Part shown: positions 30,168-36,408 of the stretch, in pieces | How the letters are laid out: the number at the start of each line of letters is the position of its first letter | Position numbering within the stretch: position 1 is the first letter of the stretch | IMG/VR virus record: IMGVR_UViG_3300042260_000800 | Coordinates: 1 to 36,602 of that record | Direction: 5' to 3' (one strand) | Source: a virus | Length of the DNA stretch: 36,602 nucleotides | Notes under the pieces: model-generated | Seen by the model: the letters and a program-made list of their open reading frames with translations, nothing else | Databases searched by the model: none | Told to the model about the DNA's origin: nothing | Translations under genes and position numbers: made by a program

Positions 30168-30863
30168 ATGGCCAACACGCTTCTAGTCAAGCGCACGACG
30201 GTCGCGGGCCGGGTGCCGACCACCGCACAGCTTGCGGCCGGGGAGCTTGCGGTCAATGTGACCGACGGCAAGCTCTTCCTCAAACGCGTCTCTGGCGCTG
30301 AAACGGTGGTGGAGCTTGGGCAAACCGGGCCTCAGGGGCCAGCCGGTCCTGTAGGGGCAACTGGTCCGGCGGGGCCACAGGGCGCAACAGGCGCCACGGG
30401 ACCACAAGGTCCTGCGGGCACAAATGGCTCTCCCGATACCGCAGCGCAGGTGCTGGCAAAGCTCATCACGGTCGACGGCGCGGGCTCCGGTCTTGATGCC
30501 GATCTTCTTGATGGCAGCCACGCCAGCGCCTTTGCCTTGCTGGCAGGCGCCACCTTCACCGGCACGGTGACCGCGCCGAACTTTGTGTCGTCCTCAGACG
30601 CGCGACTCAAATCCGACATCGCCGTGGTCCCGGATGCACTTCAGAAACTGCGGGCGCTGAGGGGCGTCACCTATCGCATGGCCGGGTCTGAAGCCCGCCA
30701 GATGGGTCTCATTGCCCAAGACGTGCAGGCGGTTGCCCCGGAAGTGGTGGTCGTGACGGAGGGTGTGCTGCGTCTCGCCTATGGCAATCTCATCGGCCTC
30801 CTCGTCGAGGCCATCAAAGACCTCGCATCTGAGGTCGATCAGCTCAAAAGGACCGCCCCATGA
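30168..30863 (+). CDS. Tail fibre with collagen-like stalk and S74 chaperone
   Basis: 231 residues. The attachment motif (MANTLLVKRTTVAG, AGELAVNVTDGKLFLKR) is followed by Gly-X-Y repeats from about residue 52 to 86 (TGPQGPAGPVGATGPAGPQG is one stretch). Then comes LDADLLDGSHAS and the S74 domain starting at SSDARLKSDIAV, with GLIAQDVQAVAPEVV. The S74 part and the APNFVSSSDARLK junction are nearly the same as in the protein at 25559-26218. The proline-containing Gly-X-Y stalk is a plausible hydroxylation substrate for the oxygenases encoded just downstream (inference). Confidence 0.88.
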   Translation: MANTLLVKRTTVAGRVPTTAQLAAGELAVNVTDGKLFLKRVSGAETVVELGQTGPQGPAGPVGATGPAGPQGATGATGPQGPAGTNGSPDTAAQVLAKLITVDGAGSGLDADLLDGSHASAFALLAGATFTGTVTAPNFVSSSDARLKSDIAVVPDALQKLRALRGVTYRMAGSEARQMGLIAQDVQAVAPEVVVVTEGVLRLAYGNLIGLLVEAIKDLASEVDQLKRTAP

Positions 30864-31774
30864 TCGAGACCGGGCTTTATGCCATCACGAACTGCGGCGT
30901 GCCGCGCCATTACGCGGTCGATGTCAAACCGGGCTATGCCGGGCTTGCGGTCTTTGTGCCTACCAGCGAAGGCACAACTGCGGGCATGGCGGGTATCATG
31001 CTCTGGGCTGATCTGCGCACCTATCTCGAGACCCCGCCCGATTTTGGCAACGCGGCAGGCTTTGTCGACACGCGCAATGACGAGGTCTTTGTCCCGGACC
31101 TGCCTGGCACGGCGCATGGCGGGGTTTACAAGGGGCGCTCTTACATCTTTGCCTCAGGCATGAACGGGCTCGATGAGCTCGTTGACTTCTCGCTTCTTGA
31201 TATTGCGGTGGGGCTGAATGCCCAGCCTTTGCCCTGGCGCAACCGCTTCGCCCAGACCGCCCGAGAAAAGGTCGACACCTCCTTCCGGCACCGTGCGCGT
31301 GAGCGCCTCTCCAATGCCATGGTGGTGTTCATGCCGATCGCTGCCCCCTTCGATCAAACCCGCATTGAGGTGCTCTGCGAGGGCGATCCGATCCTGCTGA
31401 ATGGCACAGTGCTCGCCGGCCGAGTCCCTGATGCCGACATCCCGAAGGACGGGGTGTGGTTCAAGCAGTTCTACTTCCATGCGGTGGCAGATGGCCCAGC
31501 GGGGGAGGTCTTGACCGTGCCCGCCGGCGGACGGGCAGAGGTTCCCGTTCATTTGCGCTGGAACAAGGACGCATCTCCTTGCGCCCATGCCATGACGCTC
31601 AGGCTTGAGAGCGATGCGGGCTATCTGCCAAGCCGGCGTCTTCACACAGACGAAACCGGCCAGGCTCGTTTTGCAGTCGAGGCCTTAGGGCTGACGGCGG
31701 GCGAGCGCATCACCGTCAAGATCAACACCGAGCATTACACCGCCATTGGCAAGATCACCTTGGAGGTCGTGTGA
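30860..31774 (+). CDS. Unassigned fibre-region protein with an Ig-like C-terminal domain
   Basis: 304 residues, coupled to the collagen-like fibre gene by ATGA. The N-terminal half begins ETGLYAITNCGVPRHYAVDV, quoted only in part, and contains a mixed alpha/beta region. The C-terminal ~90 residues (VLTVPAGGRAEVPVHLRW, LESDAGYLPSRRLHTDETG, ALGLTAGERITVKI) resemble a bacterial Ig-like (Big_1-type) beta-sandwich. I do not recognise the N-terminal part. It may be a receptor-binding adhesin, or a scaffold protein of the modification cassette that follows. Its stop overlaps the first oxygenase start. Confidence 0.6.
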   Translation: MIETGLYAITNCGVPRHYAVDVKPGYAGLAVFVPTSEGTTAGMAGIMLWADLRTYLETPPDFGNAAGFVDTRNDEVFVPDLPGTAHGGVYKGRSYIFASGMNGLDELVDFSLLDIAVGLNAQPLPWRNRFAQTAREKVDTSFRHRARERLSNAMVVFMPIAAPFDQTRIEVLCEGDPILLNGTVLAGRVPDADIPKDGVWFKQFYFHAVADGPAGEVLTVPAGGRAEVPVHLRWNKDASPCAHAMTLRLESDAGYLPSRRLHTDETGQARFAVEALGLTAGERITVKINTEHYTAIGKITLEVV

Positions 31775-32517
31775 TGGAGATTGCGACCACGAGCATGATG
31801 CAGGTGATTTATCCTACCTTTGTCCTGCACAAGCATTGGGACATGCCTAAGGGGTTTAACGATCGCCTTTCCGCGCTGGCGAAAGAGGACACGGAACGCA
31901 ACCGCATCAGGGACCCCCGAGATCCGCGCACCTCAGGGGACATGACCAATCACCTAGGCCATCTGCGCCACAACTTTCTGATGGACAGCAAAGACCCTGT
32001 GATCGCGATGCTGGCTCAGATGGCAGCGGCTGGCGTGCGCGAGTATCTGCAGCTCGCTTACGGCTATGACCATGCCGGAGAAATCCGCATGATGGCGGAC
32101 AGCTTCTGGCAGCGCCGGGCGCAGCGGGAGAATCTCGGGATTCACACCCATACGCATCCCCAGACGGACATTGTCTGCACCTACTATCCGCGGGTCATAT
32201 TGGACCAAGATTGCCCGGACACATCGCAGCTCCATCGCGGCGCTGTGCGGTTCTATGATCCGGCCAATGTCGGCAAGCGGCTTTGGCCCTGCCGAAACCC
32301 TGACGTTTACGTCAGCGGATGGTATGCGGTCGAGCCGCGCACTGGGTCCATGCTTATCTTCGAGGGGCATGTGCCCCATGACAGCACCTACTTCGAGGGG
32401 GAGGAGCGGATGTGCATTCCGGTCCTGTGCAACCTCGATCTTCCCAACTCCCATTGCAAGGTCGGGCTTCGCGACATTCTCGCGGCCCAAAGAGAAGGAG
32501 GCTCTCATGGCCTATAA
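31774..32517 (+). CDS. 2-oxoglutarate/Fe(II)-dependent oxygenase (first of two)
   Basis: 247 residues with the double-stranded beta-helix pattern of 2OG-Fe(II) oxygenases of the TIGR02466/2OG-FeII_Oxy_5 type. NLGIHTHTHPQTDIVCTYYP (118-139 in part) supplies metal-binding His126/His128 and Asp132. GSMLIFEGHVPHDS supplies the distal His202, and EERM supplies the 2OG-binding Arg212. Such enzymes usually hydroxylate protein or small-molecule substrates. ATG 31774 is preferred over GTG 31771 because TGGAGG is 7 bases upstream. It overlaps the Cys-tail peptide gene by 11 bp, so the two are co-translated. Confidence 0.82.
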   Translation: MEIATTSMMQVIYPTFVLHKHWDMPKGFNDRLSALAKEDTERNRIRDPRDPRTSGDMTNHLGHLRHNFLMDSKDPVIAMLAQMAAAGVREYLQLAYGYDHAGEIRMMADSFWQRRAQRENLGIHTHTHPQTDIVCTYYPRVILDQDCPDTSQLHRGAVRFYDPANVGKRLWPCRNPDVYVSGWYAVEPRTGSMLIFEGHVPHDSTYFEGEERMCIPVLCNLDLPNSHCKVGLRDILAAQREGGSHGL

Positions 32518-32764
32518 AGTTGGCACCACCATCGTGATCGACGATCAGGGTTTTGTGCCCTGGTCACGCATCTCTGGGGCACCGGCGGCGGGTTTGACAC
32601 CCGGCGAATACACCAAGACCGCCGCAGAATACAAAGCTGTAGGTGCAGGTAACCTCTCGAGCACCGCATATCTGGGTGTTGAATATCAGCCCGACATGAC
32701 GTTCCACGATGTCTATGTGACGACCTATTCGAACTGCAACTGCAACTGTGCCTGCCGGTGCTGA
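32507..32764 (+). CDS. Small protein ending in five alternating cysteines; candidate modified substrate
   Basis: 85 residues. The N-terminus is YKVGTTIVIDDQGFVPWSRI, which resembles the VGxTxVID opening I associate with marine phage fibre proteins. A middle with seven tyrosines overall (Y3, Y35, Y42, Y55, Y60, Y70, Y74) follows. The C-terminus is SNCNCNCACRC, with Cys77, 79, 81, 83 and 85 ending the protein. There is no signal peptide, no double-glycine leader and no membrane segment. A very strong GAAGGAGG lies 6 bases before the ATG, suggesting high expression. It lies between two oxygenase genes and one gene before a radical SAM/SPASM enzyme. It is the most likely substrate of that enzyme and is RiPP-precursor-like. 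No known precursor family is recognised. Confidence 0.85.
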   Translation: MAYKVGTTIVIDDQGFVPWSRISGAPAAGLTPGEYTKTAAEYKAVGAGNLSSTAYLGVEYQPDMTFHDVYVTTYSNCNCNCACRC

Positions 32765-32766
32765 CG

Positions 32767-33393
32767 ATGGAGGTTCATAGCAGGAGCGTCGAGCTCTGGC
32801 CTACCCGCGTTAGCTTCTTCGAGACGCCTGTCGATTGGGAGGTGAACCGACAGGTGGCGGATGAGGCCATTGCGGCTGTGAAGGGCAATACCACGCGCCT
32901 TTCTGCGGCCGAGCGCCGGGTGCGGGGAATTCTCGAACGCAGTGATGCCGGCCAAGCCCTGAAGTCCCACCTCTTTGCCTGCGCGCGCGCCGTGCTCGGT
33001 CCCTGGGCCCCGTGCCTCGACCCCGACCATTGCGAACACCGCGCCTTGGTCATCGGGCCCGGTGGCTTCATCTCGACCCACAAGGACAGCCGCGAGGGGG
33101 ACCTCACTTGCGTGCACTTCCTGACCGGTAGCGGGGTAGGGCAGCCGGTGAACTCTGTCGGCACCCCGCGCTTTGTGATTGAGGATCCGTCGCGCTACTT
33201 CGATGAGGGACGGCTGCCCTATGAGAGCCGCCATGGCTACTCGGTCAATCCGCGACCGGGGCTCTCGGTCTTCTTCCCCTCCCACATTCCCCACAACCAG
33301 CACCCCTATGAGGGGAGCGCGCCGCATGTGCAGGTCGTCGCGAACTTCCGCGTCAATCTGCCCGTGGCGATCGAAGAAAGGCTTTTTGACTGA
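32767..33393 (+). CDS. 2-oxoglutarate/Fe(II)-dependent oxygenase (second)
   Basis: 208 residues with a textbook HxD...H triad: ISTHKDS with His105 and Asp107, the distal His173 or His176 in FPSHIPHNQHPY, and Arg195 in VVANFRVNL for 2OG. The architecture resembles aspartyl/asparaginyl beta-hydroxylase-like or prolyl-hydroxylase-like cupins. It differs clearly from the first oxygenase, so the pair probably acts on different residues or steps. ATG 32767 or GTG 32758 may start it; no strong ribosome-binding site is seen, so translation likely depends on the peptide gene just upstream. Its stop overlaps the radical SAM start (TGATG). Confidence 0.85.
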   Translation: MEVHSRSVELWPTRVSFFETPVDWEVNRQVADEAIAAVKGNTTRLSAAERRVRGILERSDAGQALKSHLFACARAVLGPWAPCLDPDHCEHRALVIGPGGFISTHKDSREGDLTCVHFLTGSGVGQPVNSVGTPRFVIEDPSRYFDEGRLPYESRHGYSVNPRPGLSVFFPSHIPHNQHPYEGSAPHVQVVANFRVNLPVAIEERLFD

Positions 33394-34649
33394 TGTGGTT
33401 TGATCTGACGTTGGAAGCGCGGGATGGCAGCCGCCATTCCGTCCGCTACAACCCGCACACTTCGGAATGCGAGGGGCTGCCACTGCCTGTTAACCCGGGA
33501 ACCTTCGCGCAGGTCGCCCGTGTGGCCAAAGACAAGCCCCTGGGCAAATCCCGTGCGCCTCTGGTGCTCAAAATCCAGCTGGGCCTGTCGTGCAACTATG
33601 CTTGCACCTATTGCAGTCAGGCCTTCCAGATCGCGGATGCCACGGTCTCGAGGCTGGCGGATGTTGAGCACTTCTTGACCCAGCTTGACGGCTGGATTGC
33701 CCAAGCCCCAGAAAAGATTGAGCTCTGGGGCGGAGAGCCATTTTTGTATTGGGCCAAGATCAAGCGGCTGATCCCGGCGCTGGCGGAGCGGTTCCCGACG
33801 GCAGCCTTCTCAATCATAACCAACGGATCCCTCCTCGACCGCAAAAAGCTCGACTTCATAGCCGCGCATGACCTCGCCATCACGATCTCGCATGACGGGC
33901 CGGGGCAGCATCTGCGAGGGCCGGATCCGCTTGATGATCCCGACAAGCGGCGCTGGATTGAAGCCCTGCTGGCCGAGCGGCCGGGCAGGACTGGCTTCAA
34001 CGCGGTGCTGACGCGCCAGCATCACGACCTTCGGGCCCTCAAGTCCTGGTTCGCCGAAAAGGTCGGGCCCGACATCTTCGTCGGGCTCGAGGGCGTGGTG
34101 AATGTCTATGACGCGGCGACCGCCATCGGGACAGGGCGGTTCGATCCCGCGGAGCTGAACAGCCTGACGCGGTCGATCTTTGAAGCGCTGGTCGAGGACC
34201 AGAATGCCTTCGGCCTTGGGGAACGCATCAACGAGTTCTATGCCTCGATCCAGCGTCGGCGGCCAATCGAAGCCCTTGGTCAGAAATGCGGTATGGACAG
34301 CCCGGACGCCATCGCAGTTGATCTTCGCGGCAACGTCATGACCTGCCAGAACACCGGGGCAAAGGGGGCCCACAAGATTGGGCATGTTGCCGACTTTGAC
34401 GCCATCGCGCTTGATACCGCGACACACTTTGCGTTTCGGGAGGAATGCATGGCATGCCCTGTCGTTCAGCTCTGCAAGGGGTCCTGCATGTTCCTCGAAG
34501 GGGACTTCTTCAAGCAGTCTTGTGCCAACGAGTTCGCGTTTAACATGGGGATCATGATGGCGGCATTATGGCATTTGATGGGGATGGTGGTGGTCGGGTT
34601 GAAGGCAAGATCGGGCGAGAAAACGGCGCAGGTTACGCTGGCCGGATAA
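33393..34649 (+). CDS. Radical SAM / SPASM-domain protein
   Basis: 418 residues. After a 55-residue N-terminal extension comes the 4Fe-4S/SAM motif CNYACTYC (Cys67, 71, 74, CX3CX2C), then LWGGEPF (111-117) for SAM binding and SIITNGSLL. The C-terminal SPASM domain has all seven cysteines in canonical spacing: Cys299, GX4C at Cys318, CX2CX5CX3C at 352/355/361/365, and Cys377. Such enzymes usually install thioether, C-C or epimerised linkages in ribosomal peptides or mature enzymes, using two auxiliary clusters. No recognisable RRE domain is seen. Being last in a tightly coupled operon with the Cys-tail protein, its substrate is probably that protein. Confidence 0.9.
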   Translation: MWFDLTLEARDGSRHSVRYNPHTSECEGLPLPVNPGTFAQVARVAKDKPLGKSRAPLVLKIQLGLSCNYACTYCSQAFQIADATVSRLADVEHFLTQLDGWIAQAPEKIELWGGEPFLYWAKIKRLIPALAERFPTAAFSIITNGSLLDRKKLDFIAAHDLAITISHDGPGQHLRGPDPLDDPDKRRWIEALLAERPGRTGFNAVLTRQHHDLRALKSWFAEKVGPDIFVGLEGVVNVYDAATAIGTGRFDPAELNSLTRSIFEALVEDQNAFGLGERINEFYASIQRRRPIEALGQKCGMDSPDAIAVDLRGNVMTCQNTGAKGAHKIGHVADFDAIALDTATHFAFREECMACPVVQLCKGSCMFLEGDFFKQSCANEFAFNMGIMMAALWHLMGMVVVGLKARSGEKTAQVTLAG

Positions 34650-35034: not shown

Positions 35035-35056
35035 TTTACCCCAGTTGGAGTTGAAG

Positions 35057-35431
35057 ATGATGAAGAAGCCCGTGACTACGAAGGCCCCTGCCGAGCAGGT
35101 CGTGAAGGACATCCGGCGTGCGACGCGCAAGTTGCATTCGTCCGAGGAGAAGATCCGGATCGTGCTATCCGGCCTGCGTGGCGAAGACAGCATTGCCGAG
35201 TTGTGCCGCAAGGAAGGGATCGCCCAAAGCCTTTATTACAGCTGGTCGAAGGAATTTCTCGAGGCTGGCAAGAAGCGCCTGGCCGGTGACACAGTCCGGC
35301 AAGCGAACACCGGCGAAGTAAAAGACCTGCGCGCTGAGGCAATGGCGCTGAAGGAACTGGTGGCCGACCTCAGCCTCGAAAACCGCTTGCTCAAAAAAAA
35401 CATGAGCGGGGCTGGGGGAGACCAAGAATGA
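35057..35431 (+). CDS. IS3-family transposase OrfA
   Basis: 124 residues: HTH_Tnp_1-type helix-turn-helix (SSEEKIRIVLSGLRGEDSIAEL in parts, CRKEGIAQSLYYSWSKEF), followed by a leucine-zipper-like coiled coil (LRAEAMALKELVADLSLENRLLKKN in parts). It binds the IS ends. ATG 35057 is chosen. Near its end, A AAA AAC (35395-35401) is in phase for a -1 shift that would join it to OrfB. Confidence 0.88.
   Translation: MMKKPVTTKAPAEQVVKDIRRATRKLHSSEEKIRIVLSGLRGEDSIAELCRKEGIAQSLYYSWSKEFLEAGKKRLAGDTVRQANTGEVKDLRAEAMALKELVADLSLENRLLKKNMSGAGGDQE
35395..35401 (+). promoter_or_regulatory. -1 frameshift heptamer A AAA AAC (OrfAB)
   Basis: The zero-frame codons AAA AAA AAC place the heptamer correctly. The shifted frame is that of OrfB and is open through to it, giving the OrfAB transposase. 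The separate ATGA overlap at 35428 also allows OrfB alone. Confidence 0.75.
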
Positions 35432-36408
35432 GATACCCAGCCGCCGAAAAGCTTGAAATCATCCGGCTGGTGGAGCAGTCGCATCTGTCCGTCAGGCGCA
35501 CCCTGTCCAAGATCGGCATCCCGCCCACCACATTCTACCGCTGGTATGACCGCTTCGTCGAACAGGGGCCCGAGGGGTTGGAGGACAGGCCCTCTTCCCC
35601 TTCCCGGGTCTGGAACCGGATCCCCGAAGCGGTGCGGGATCGGATACTGGACCTGGCGCTCGAGGAGCCGGAACTGTCGCCGCGCGAACTAGCCGTGAGG
35701 TTCATTGATACGGAAAAGTATTTTGTGTCAGAGGCTTCAGTTTACCGCCTGCTCAAATCCCACGACCTCATCACCAGCCCCGCCTACGTCGTCATCAAGG
35801 CGGCGGATGAGTTCAAGGACAAGACGACGGCGCCAAACCAGATGTGGCAGACTGATTTTACCTATCTCAAGGTCATCGGCTGGGGCTGGTTTTACCTGTC
35901 CACGATCCTCGACGACTACTCCCGCTACGTCATCGGCTGGAAACTCTGCGGCAACATGCGGGCCGAGGATGTCACCGACACGCTCGACATCGCCCTTGCC
36001 GCATCAGGCTGCGACAGTGCCAAGGTTCTGCACAAACCTCGGCTTCTCAGCGATAATGGCTCGTCCTACATCGCCGAGGATCTGGCCAAATACCTCGAGG
36101 ACAAAGGCATGGCGCACGTCCGCGGGGCGCCGATGCATCCCCAGACCCAAGGCAAGATCGAACGCTGGCACCAGACCCTCAAGAACCGCATTCTCTTGGA
36201 AAACTACTTCCTCGAAGGCGAACTTGAGGCCGCCATCGCCGCATTCATCGACCACTACAATAACCATCGCTACCACGAGAGCATCGGCAACCTCACCCCA
36301 GCTGACGTCTACTTCGGCCGCGGCGAAACCATCTTGGCCGAAAGGAGGCGCATCAAACAGCAGACCATCAAAAACCGCCGCTTGAACCATCAGCGTCAAG
36401 CAGCATAA
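35428..36408 (+). CDS. IS3-family transposase OrfB (DDE integrase core)
   Basis: 326 residues. An N-terminal helix-turn-helix (EKLEIIRLVEQSHLSVRRTL, FYRWYDRFVEQG) precedes the rve catalytic core: WQTDFTYLKV with the first Asp, LSDNGSSYIAED with the second Asp, and QGKIERWHQTLKNRI with the Glu, which is the DDE triad in IS3 spacing. It appears intact, so the element may be mobile. The last residues are basic. Confidence 0.92.
   Translation: MRYPAAEKLEIIRLVEQSHLSVRRTLSKIGIPPTTFYRWYDRFVEQGPEGLEDRPSSPSRVWNRIPEAVRDRILDLALEEPELSPRELAVRFIDTEKYFVSEASVYRLLKSHDLITSPAYVVIKAADEFKDKTTAPNQMWQTDFTYLKVIGWGWFYLSTILDDYSRYVIGWKLCGNMRAEDVTDTLDIALAASGCDSAKVLHKPRLLSDNGSSYIAEDLAKYLEDKGMAHVRGAPMHPQTQGKIERWHQTLKNRILLENYFLEGELEAAIAAFIDHYNNHRYHESIGNLTPADVYFGRGETILAERRRIKQQTIKNRRLNHQRQAA

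Follow-up and report, generated by a model that had tools for sequence, protein, structure and literature searches.

The stretch of DNA considered here (the window: positions 1-36,602 of the IMG/VR virus record IMGVR_UViG_3300042260_000800, taken at its full length of 36,602 nucleotides) encodes a cassette, in which a radical S-adenosylmethionine (SAM)/SPASM enzyme stands together with two 2-oxoglutarate (2OG)-Fe(II) oxygenases and an 85-residue protein that ends in alternating cysteines, (Cys-X)4-Cys. As judged from the sequences and structural models, the cassette probably serves the maturation of tail-fibre tips, as a module encoded by the phage and acting most likely by means of cysteine thioether cross-links. 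The gene anatomy, the invariant cofactor ligands, the pairing of tail and enzyme, the occurrence of the C-terminal tail on unrelated scaffolds, the peptide-maturase-like fold of the modelled enzyme and the phage context are what the analysis shows.

Pairing of the maturase with alternating-cysteine tails

In hundreds of phages and prophages, the radical SAM enzyme occurs together with a (Cys-X)n tail, and this pairing is conserved. The scan of IMG/VR with the enzyme returned 153 relatives, and 80 loci were taken for the neighbourhood analysis; in most of these, a protein with alternating cysteines at its C-terminus, short or long, lies beside the enzyme, the cysteine-tailed gene being usually 0.5-4 kb upstream, and the pairing persists at 35-49% enzyme identity. 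With a strict (Cys-X)n filter, applied to loci that were found by the enzyme alone and had sufficient flank, the tail was detected in 29 of 35 IMG/VR loci and 44 of 52 loci from GTDB genomes; tails missed by the filter are visible by eye in the IMG/VR loci L024, L030, L037, L038 and L068 and in the GTDB locus L384.

The reciprocal scan of IMG/VR ignored the enzyme and searched the DNA for CNCNCNC or for five cysteines spaced by codons of the N/D/A/T type, with a real tail defined as a motif in an open frame that ends no more than 12 residues from the stop, and a longer locus as one that exceeds 8 kb of DNA. Among the matches listed, the enzyme family was found beside 44 of 63 real C-terminal tails and, at loci above 8 kb, beside 36 of 43 real tails as against one of 84 other matches (Fisher's exact p = 1.8e-23). 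The off-frame and other pattern matches, many of which are simple repeats or chance matches, served as the negative control, and among those listed the enzyme was present in 4 of 159, all four being real (Cys-X)n proteins that failed the length or the C-terminal rule. Thus, the C-terminal (Cys-X)n tail is diagnostic of the enzyme, since a tail found without any reference to the enzyme adjoins it, and the arrangement in the window is not a matter of chance, because the same pairing recurs over hundreds of loci.

The cassette and its proteins

The features of the window that belong to or border the cassette are as follows.

30168..30863, + strand: collagen-like tail fibre with a C-terminal S74 chaperone (Peptidase_S74 E=6.8e-16, Collagen E=2.5e-6), directly upstream of the five-gene unit
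30860..31774, + strand: immunoglobulin (Ig)-like partner protein of 304 residues (from the translation), with a C-terminal invasin/Big-like domain at residues 203-304
31774..32517, + strand: 2OG-Fe(II) oxygenase 1 (HxH...H; PF13759/phrog_81-like by profiles), alternative GTG start at 31771
32507..32764, + strand: 85-residue cysteine-tailed mini tail-fibre or tip protein, the proposed substrate (from the sequence and relatives)
32732..32761, + strand: the (Cys-X)4-Cys tail, residues NCNCNCACRC (from the sequence and the reciprocal scan)
32767..33393, + strand: 2OG-Fe(II) oxygenase 2 (HxD/E...H; weak profiles and motif), alternative GTG start at 32758
33393..34649, + strand: radical SAM/SPASM maturase of 418 residues, phrog_1802 family (profiles, motifs and AlphaFold2 model)

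The junctions between the cassette genes are overlaps of 1-11 nucleotides or gaps of no more than 2 nucleotides. The initial annotation had placed four open genes at 31774-34649, and all of them are present there; however, the start of the unit was set too late, and the unit comprises five genes, because the 304-residue gene at 30860-31774 is coupled upstream in the same manner as the other four. Its description of a radical SAM enzyme with CX3CX2C and a seven-cysteine SPASM domain was upheld by the profile cut-offs and by the cysteines of 38 homologues, and its 85-residue protein does end in (Cys-X)4-Cys. The motifs given to the oxygenases had to be corrected: it is oxygenase 2, called diverged, that has the classical HxD/E...H, and oxygenase 1 has HxH...H instead. 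The remark that transporter, leader peptidase and immunity genes are lacking likewise holds for the window open reading frames scanned, where no exporter, C39-type peptidase or immunity gene was seen, where the sole family of peptidase or exporter type is a ClpP/SDH-type (phage head) protease and where no PqqD-like family was found. The window also encodes a lambda-type portal, terminase, capsid, tail tube, tape measure and holin. An IS3-type transposase pair (HTH_Tnp_1, rve) lies directly downstream of the cassette at 35045-36408, and megablast of the window region against the phage collection gave no match.

The enzyme belongs to the radical SAM superfamily and carries a SPASM domain, matching PF04055 (Radical_SAM) at 36.9 bits (cut-off 29.5) and the SPASM model TIGR04085 at 30.6 bits (cut-off 27). 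In the alignment of the 38 homologues (33-92% identity), C67, C71 and C74 of the CX3CX2C motif are invariant, as are G313 and the seven SPASM cysteines C299, C318, C352, C355, C361, C365 and C377, in the defining pattern C-x-GX4C ... CX2CX5CX3C ... C. The NCBIfam equivalogs of SPASM maturases (PapB, nif11, QhpD and anSME, the anaerobic sulfatase-maturating enzyme) all scored below their curated cut-offs, the best being PapB with 65.9 of 340. The AlphaFold2 model of the enzyme (predicted local distance difference test, pLDDT, 93.9) is closest among PDB folds to CteB (5wgg, Z 23.8, root-mean-square deviation 4.2 over 359 residues), followed by ChlB (9gmc, Z 22.1), anSMEcpe (4k36, Z 21.1) and TigE (8vpo, Z 18.6). 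A recognition element (RRE) of ribosomally synthesised and post-translationally modified peptide (RiPP) pathways consists of three strands and three helices, fused or separate; the N-terminus of the modelled enzyme has three short strands before the core that come without helices, and, therefore, no complete RRE is fused to it. Upstream of the main enzyme gene, the loci L032/L126, L056, L061/L236, L063, L067, L091 and L125 show another radical SAM gene or match, which is more diverged.

The 85-residue protein ends in SNCNCNCACRC, with all of its five cysteines inside the tail. Thirty distinct relatives share its first ~25 residues (MAYKVG[TS]TIVI.D.G...W.RI) and keep a C-terminal tail of the NCNC(NC)xRC type, while the middle is strongly divergent and the partnering enzymes remain ~80-90% identical. 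Since the ends are conserved, the middle is variable and the enzymes are so similar, sequence comparison suggests that the enzyme most likely recognises the ends of the peptide, tail or head, as its target rather than the body. The block 'W.RI..[KA]P' resembles tail-fibre linkers by eye, though no profile confirms it. In 146 non-identical tails, the position X is occupied by Asn (341 of 571), Ala (97), Asp (68) or Arg (28); the runs hold 3-10 cysteines, and the tail end is the exact C-terminus in 83 of 184 tails.

The bodies that bear such tails are unrelated to one another, and include the N-terminal domain of T7 gp17 (Phage_T7_tail E=1.4e-20), collagen repeats and phage tail repeats, at least one such recognised fibre domain being found in many relatives of the cysteine-tailed protein. 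Most PHROG matches of the tail-bearing proteins are to tail-fibre families, and very short tips also occur. Two or three different small cysteine-tailed proteins stand in tandem in the phages of L155, L192, L113, L026, L027 and L040, which suggests multi-subunit tips.

A Hint domain comes after the tail in 11 loci, among them those of JWF and 2-1, two cultured phages of Achromobacter; the junction in JWF reads NCNCDCNCNCS-CFPAGTMVLMADG. The first Hint cysteine continues or directly adjoins the (Cys-X)n run in 10 of the 11 loci, L113 being the exception, and self-cleavage of Hint would leave the run as a free C-terminus. Because the Hint label changes at least six times on the enzyme tree, separate lineages appear to have got the same exposed tail by different routes. 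In L073, L075, L077, L080 and L104, the tail precedes a domain of ~175 residues starting with SKII[CV] (KLYDFGLM..AADQAYG..), which could be a removable chaperone.

The family of 2OG-Fe(II) oxygenases is recognised by the HxD/E...H iron ligands. Oxygenase 1 matched PF13759 (2OG-FeII_Oxy_5) with E=8.6e-6 and 26.5 bits, just below the cut-off of 27, TIGR02466 with E=2.7e-7 (below cut-off) and phrog_81 with E=2.6e-11, and its residues H126, H128 and H202 are kept in 49 of 49 homologues. The matches of oxygenase 2 are weak (PF13759 E=0.02, phrog_81 E=3.2e-5); H108 and H179 are present in all 61 homologues, and Asp or Glu at position 110 in 57 of them. Two oxygenase copies per locus are found in the Rhodobacteraceae-type loci, and other 2OG families recur elsewhere, such as PF13640 in L281 and Asp_Arg_Hydrox in L040.

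The Ig-like partner has no Pfam, NCBIfam or PHROG family and gave no match by tblastn. In its AlphaFold2 model (pLDDT 88.3), residues 202-304 resemble intimin (1f00, Z 9.7 by VIA-align of that part only), and the N-terminal ~200 residues are matched in fold only by uncharacterised phage proteins; a PDB relative of this N-terminal part was not found, VIA-align having covered only 202-304, which is no evidence for a new fold. The closest BFVD model is that of an uncultured Caudovirales protein (template modelling score 0.86). The Ig-like C-terminal domain was found at 134 of the 212 loci that have the enzyme, in each case on the strand of the enzyme. The partner probably serves as a component of the tail or of an adaptor, or else as an assembly factor.

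The GTDB matches of the enzyme come from Thalassobacter stenotrophicus CECT 5294, Thalassovita, Nereida, Rhodoplanes, Bradyrhizobium, Limnohabitans, Magnetospirillum and Burkholderia paludis MSh1. Thalassobacter stenotrophicus CECT 5294 has four enzyme copies (L317, L318, L319, L366), three of them beside a cysteine-tailed protein. In the flanks of ten GTDB loci, tail and baseplate families dominate, and no exporter/peptidase pattern was found in them. The proposal of the initial annotation that the substrate is a virion part and not a secreted antibiotic agrees with the tail fibres among the relatives, the neighbourhood of tail and lysis genes and the lack of any exporter seen. Homologous operons away from phages, which it had named as speaking against this proposal, occur only in the small Ramlibacter/Variovorax clade (L325-L329).

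This clade of Ramlibacter, Variovorax and a gammaproteobacterial metagenome-assembled genome (6 rows; Shimodaira-Hasegawa-like approximate likelihood ratio test, SH-aLRT, 99) is without the (Cys-X)n tail. In all four of its loci tested (L325, L326, L328, L329), the enzyme is near a YcaO-nitroreductase fusion and away from phage genes; small cysteine-containing peptides are present in L325, L328 and L329, with TSDCGCF/TSDCIA in L328 and L325, and no exporter or protease was seen in these loci, which were partly scanned. They are probably an uncharacterised azole/radical SAM hybrid RiPP locus. On the midpoint-rooted enzyme tree the clade is nested inside the phage family, which is consistent with reuse of the phage enzyme family in a cellular RiPP locus. 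The radical SAM matches in Campylobacter (CP220 group) and Erwinia jumbo phages were set aside, with 29-33% identity over the core and no adjacent (Cys-X)n tail seen. In the Erwinia phage EarlPhillipIV, gp162 (L084, 6107-6493) is a protein of 128 residues with CSGSC/CSGTC repeats, which adjoins the radical SAM genes gp157 and gp158 and virion genes; this locus is possibly an analogous, unrelated modification of a cysteine-repeat virion protein.

Proposed chemistry of the tip and the alternatives

According to the proposed sequence of events, the cysteine-tailed protein, which would be a minimal fibre or tip here and the C-terminus of a full fibre elsewhere, presents an exposed (Cys-X)n tail of beta type, and the radical SAM/SPASM enzyme would bind and modify it. 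That the tail is the substrate of the enzyme is quite likely, and it is equally likely that in virions the modified product sits at the tip of the fibre. The modification itself would most likely consist of thioether bonds that link the tail cysteines to residues nearby or on another chain, so that the tip would be locked covalently; this choice of chemistry is tentative, its chances being put slightly short of even. In the Rhodobacteraceae branch, the two 2OG-Fe(II) oxygenases may add oxidations, probably hydroxylations, and the chances that they act on the same cysteine-tailed protein appear about equal either way.

Several observations weigh against the proposed module. The enzyme loci L060, L320, L332 and L342 have no visible (Cys-X)n protein; the 85-residue protein itself matched no tail-fibre family; and the fold does not fix the bond type, since anSME, which makes formylglycine from cysteine, and SPASM enzymes with different chemistries are also among the fold neighbours. 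The oxygenase profiles match only 52 of 133 loci, and, therefore, the core function does not require an oxygenase. Of the cassette as initially annotated, the enzyme and its (Cys-X)n partner are the constant pair, while the two oxygenases characterise the Rhodobacteraceae branch and not the whole system.

Among the alternatives, the tail may be a metal- or Fe-S-binding tip, like the His-X-His tip of T4 gp37, with the enzymes having a different protein as their target or serving to insert the cluster. Through the C-X-C-X alternation the cysteines all point to the same side of a strand, as the histidines do in HxH tips, the X residues are small and polar, and iron-binding HxH tips are known in tail fibres of the T4 gp37 type (PMC11705849); however, simple metal binding does not explain why the tail is so strictly paired with a SPASM maturase, whose fold relatives modify peptides, and 3-10 cysteines per tail is a wider range than a defined cluster site would permit. 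This alternative is considered unlikely.

Somewhat less likely still is an anSME-like reaction, by which the tail cysteines would be oxidised to formylglycine or desulphurised, yielding a reactive aldehyde tip for binding amines of the host surface. The cysteine-directed anSMEcpe is among the top folds (4k36), and the JWF enzyme is annotated as an anaerobic sulfatase-maturating enzyme in KP202971, but CteB has the highest Z with more residues aligned (359), the C-X-P-X-R motif is absent from the tails, and the score with the NCBIfam sulfatase maturase model is far under the cut-off (38.9 of 349).

It is very improbable that the cassette is a hitch-hiking RiPP, in which the 85-residue protein would be a precursor and its C-terminal core, once modified, would be cleaved away and set free, e.g., at lysis, as an antibiotic or signal: a SPASM enzyme beside a short cysteine-ended peptide recalls ranthipeptide and sactipeptide loci, the window has the maturase beside a cysteine-containing substrate gene by which RiPP loci are recognised, and the nested cellular clade with YcaO exists, but genes for an exporter, a leader peptidase or immunity are absent among the window open reading frames scanned, the enzyme has no complete RRE, the same tail is borne in the relatives by complete fibres whose shafts are of the T7-gp17, collagen or tail-repeat kind, and Hint would expose the tail at the fibre end, not free a peptide. 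An ordinary antibiotic RiPP locus was ruled out as the leading explanation by the tail on full fibres and the absent export genes.

Taking the tip-maturation module in its broadest form, it is on balance plausible that a horizontally mobile phage system of radical chemistry covalently modifies a C-terminal cysteine code, which is grafted on unrelated fibres and sometimes unveiled by Hint, so that the tip would go beyond the 20 standard amino acids. If this is true, receptor-binding tips carry enzyme-made chemistry that lies outside the genome-based predictions of fibres and host range, the C-terminal (Cys-X)n tail is a simple sequence signature for finding such phages, and SPASM chemistry, besides natural products and periplasmic enzymes, also reaches the structure of virions. 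The tail would also provide proteins capped by thioethers with a substrate tag that is easy to score, and a role would be offered for the phage radical SAM family phrog_1802 and a part of the phrog_81 oxygenases, so far unexplained.

Comparison with known systems

The SPASM thioether maturases of the CteB type (ranthipeptides/sactipeptides) share with the phage enzyme the radical SAM core with a seven-cysteine SPASM domain and a paired gene for a cysteine-containing substrate, and CteB is the best fold match. However, the phage enzyme is 17% identical to CteB and has neither a complete RRE nor genes for export and proteolysis, and the substrate on the phage side is a protein of the tail-fibre type with a C-terminal alternating cysteine tail. 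The QhpD/PeaB maturases are the nearest plasmid relatives of the enzyme, and TIGR03906 matches its residues 57-366 (E=1.6e-12), but with 46.9 bits against a cut-off of 453, and QhpD is not phage-borne. QhpD/PeaB matures a functional protein and not a natural product, its substrate being a subunit of a periplasmic enzyme, the quinohemoprotein amine dehydrogenase. As for anSME, which also acts on a cysteine of an intact protein and has a similar fold, the phage system differs by its low score with the NCBIfam model, by tails that lack the sulfatase motif, and by no sulfatase being seen nearby.

On the side of the fibres, the S74 endosialidase chaperone and Hint-type autoprocessing are similar in placing a self-cleaving C-terminal domain on phage fibres, but here Hint begins at the end of the (Cys-X)n run, and cleavage would expose the tail to the enzyme or the host. 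The T4 gp37 tips likewise have an alternating motif at the receptor-binding tip (PMC11705849); gp37, however, has His instead of Cys, its motif lies inside the fibre and not at a free C-terminus, and no dedicated modifying enzyme is described there. A phage radical SAM/SPASM enzyme acting on tail fibres, or cysteine tails of this kind, are undescribed in the literature searched, most subscription papers and most preprints lying outside it. While the enzyme falls into a known class, that literature has neither its substrate class nor its setting, and the described tip chemistry that comes closest is that of the iron-binding HxH fibre tips (PMC11705849).

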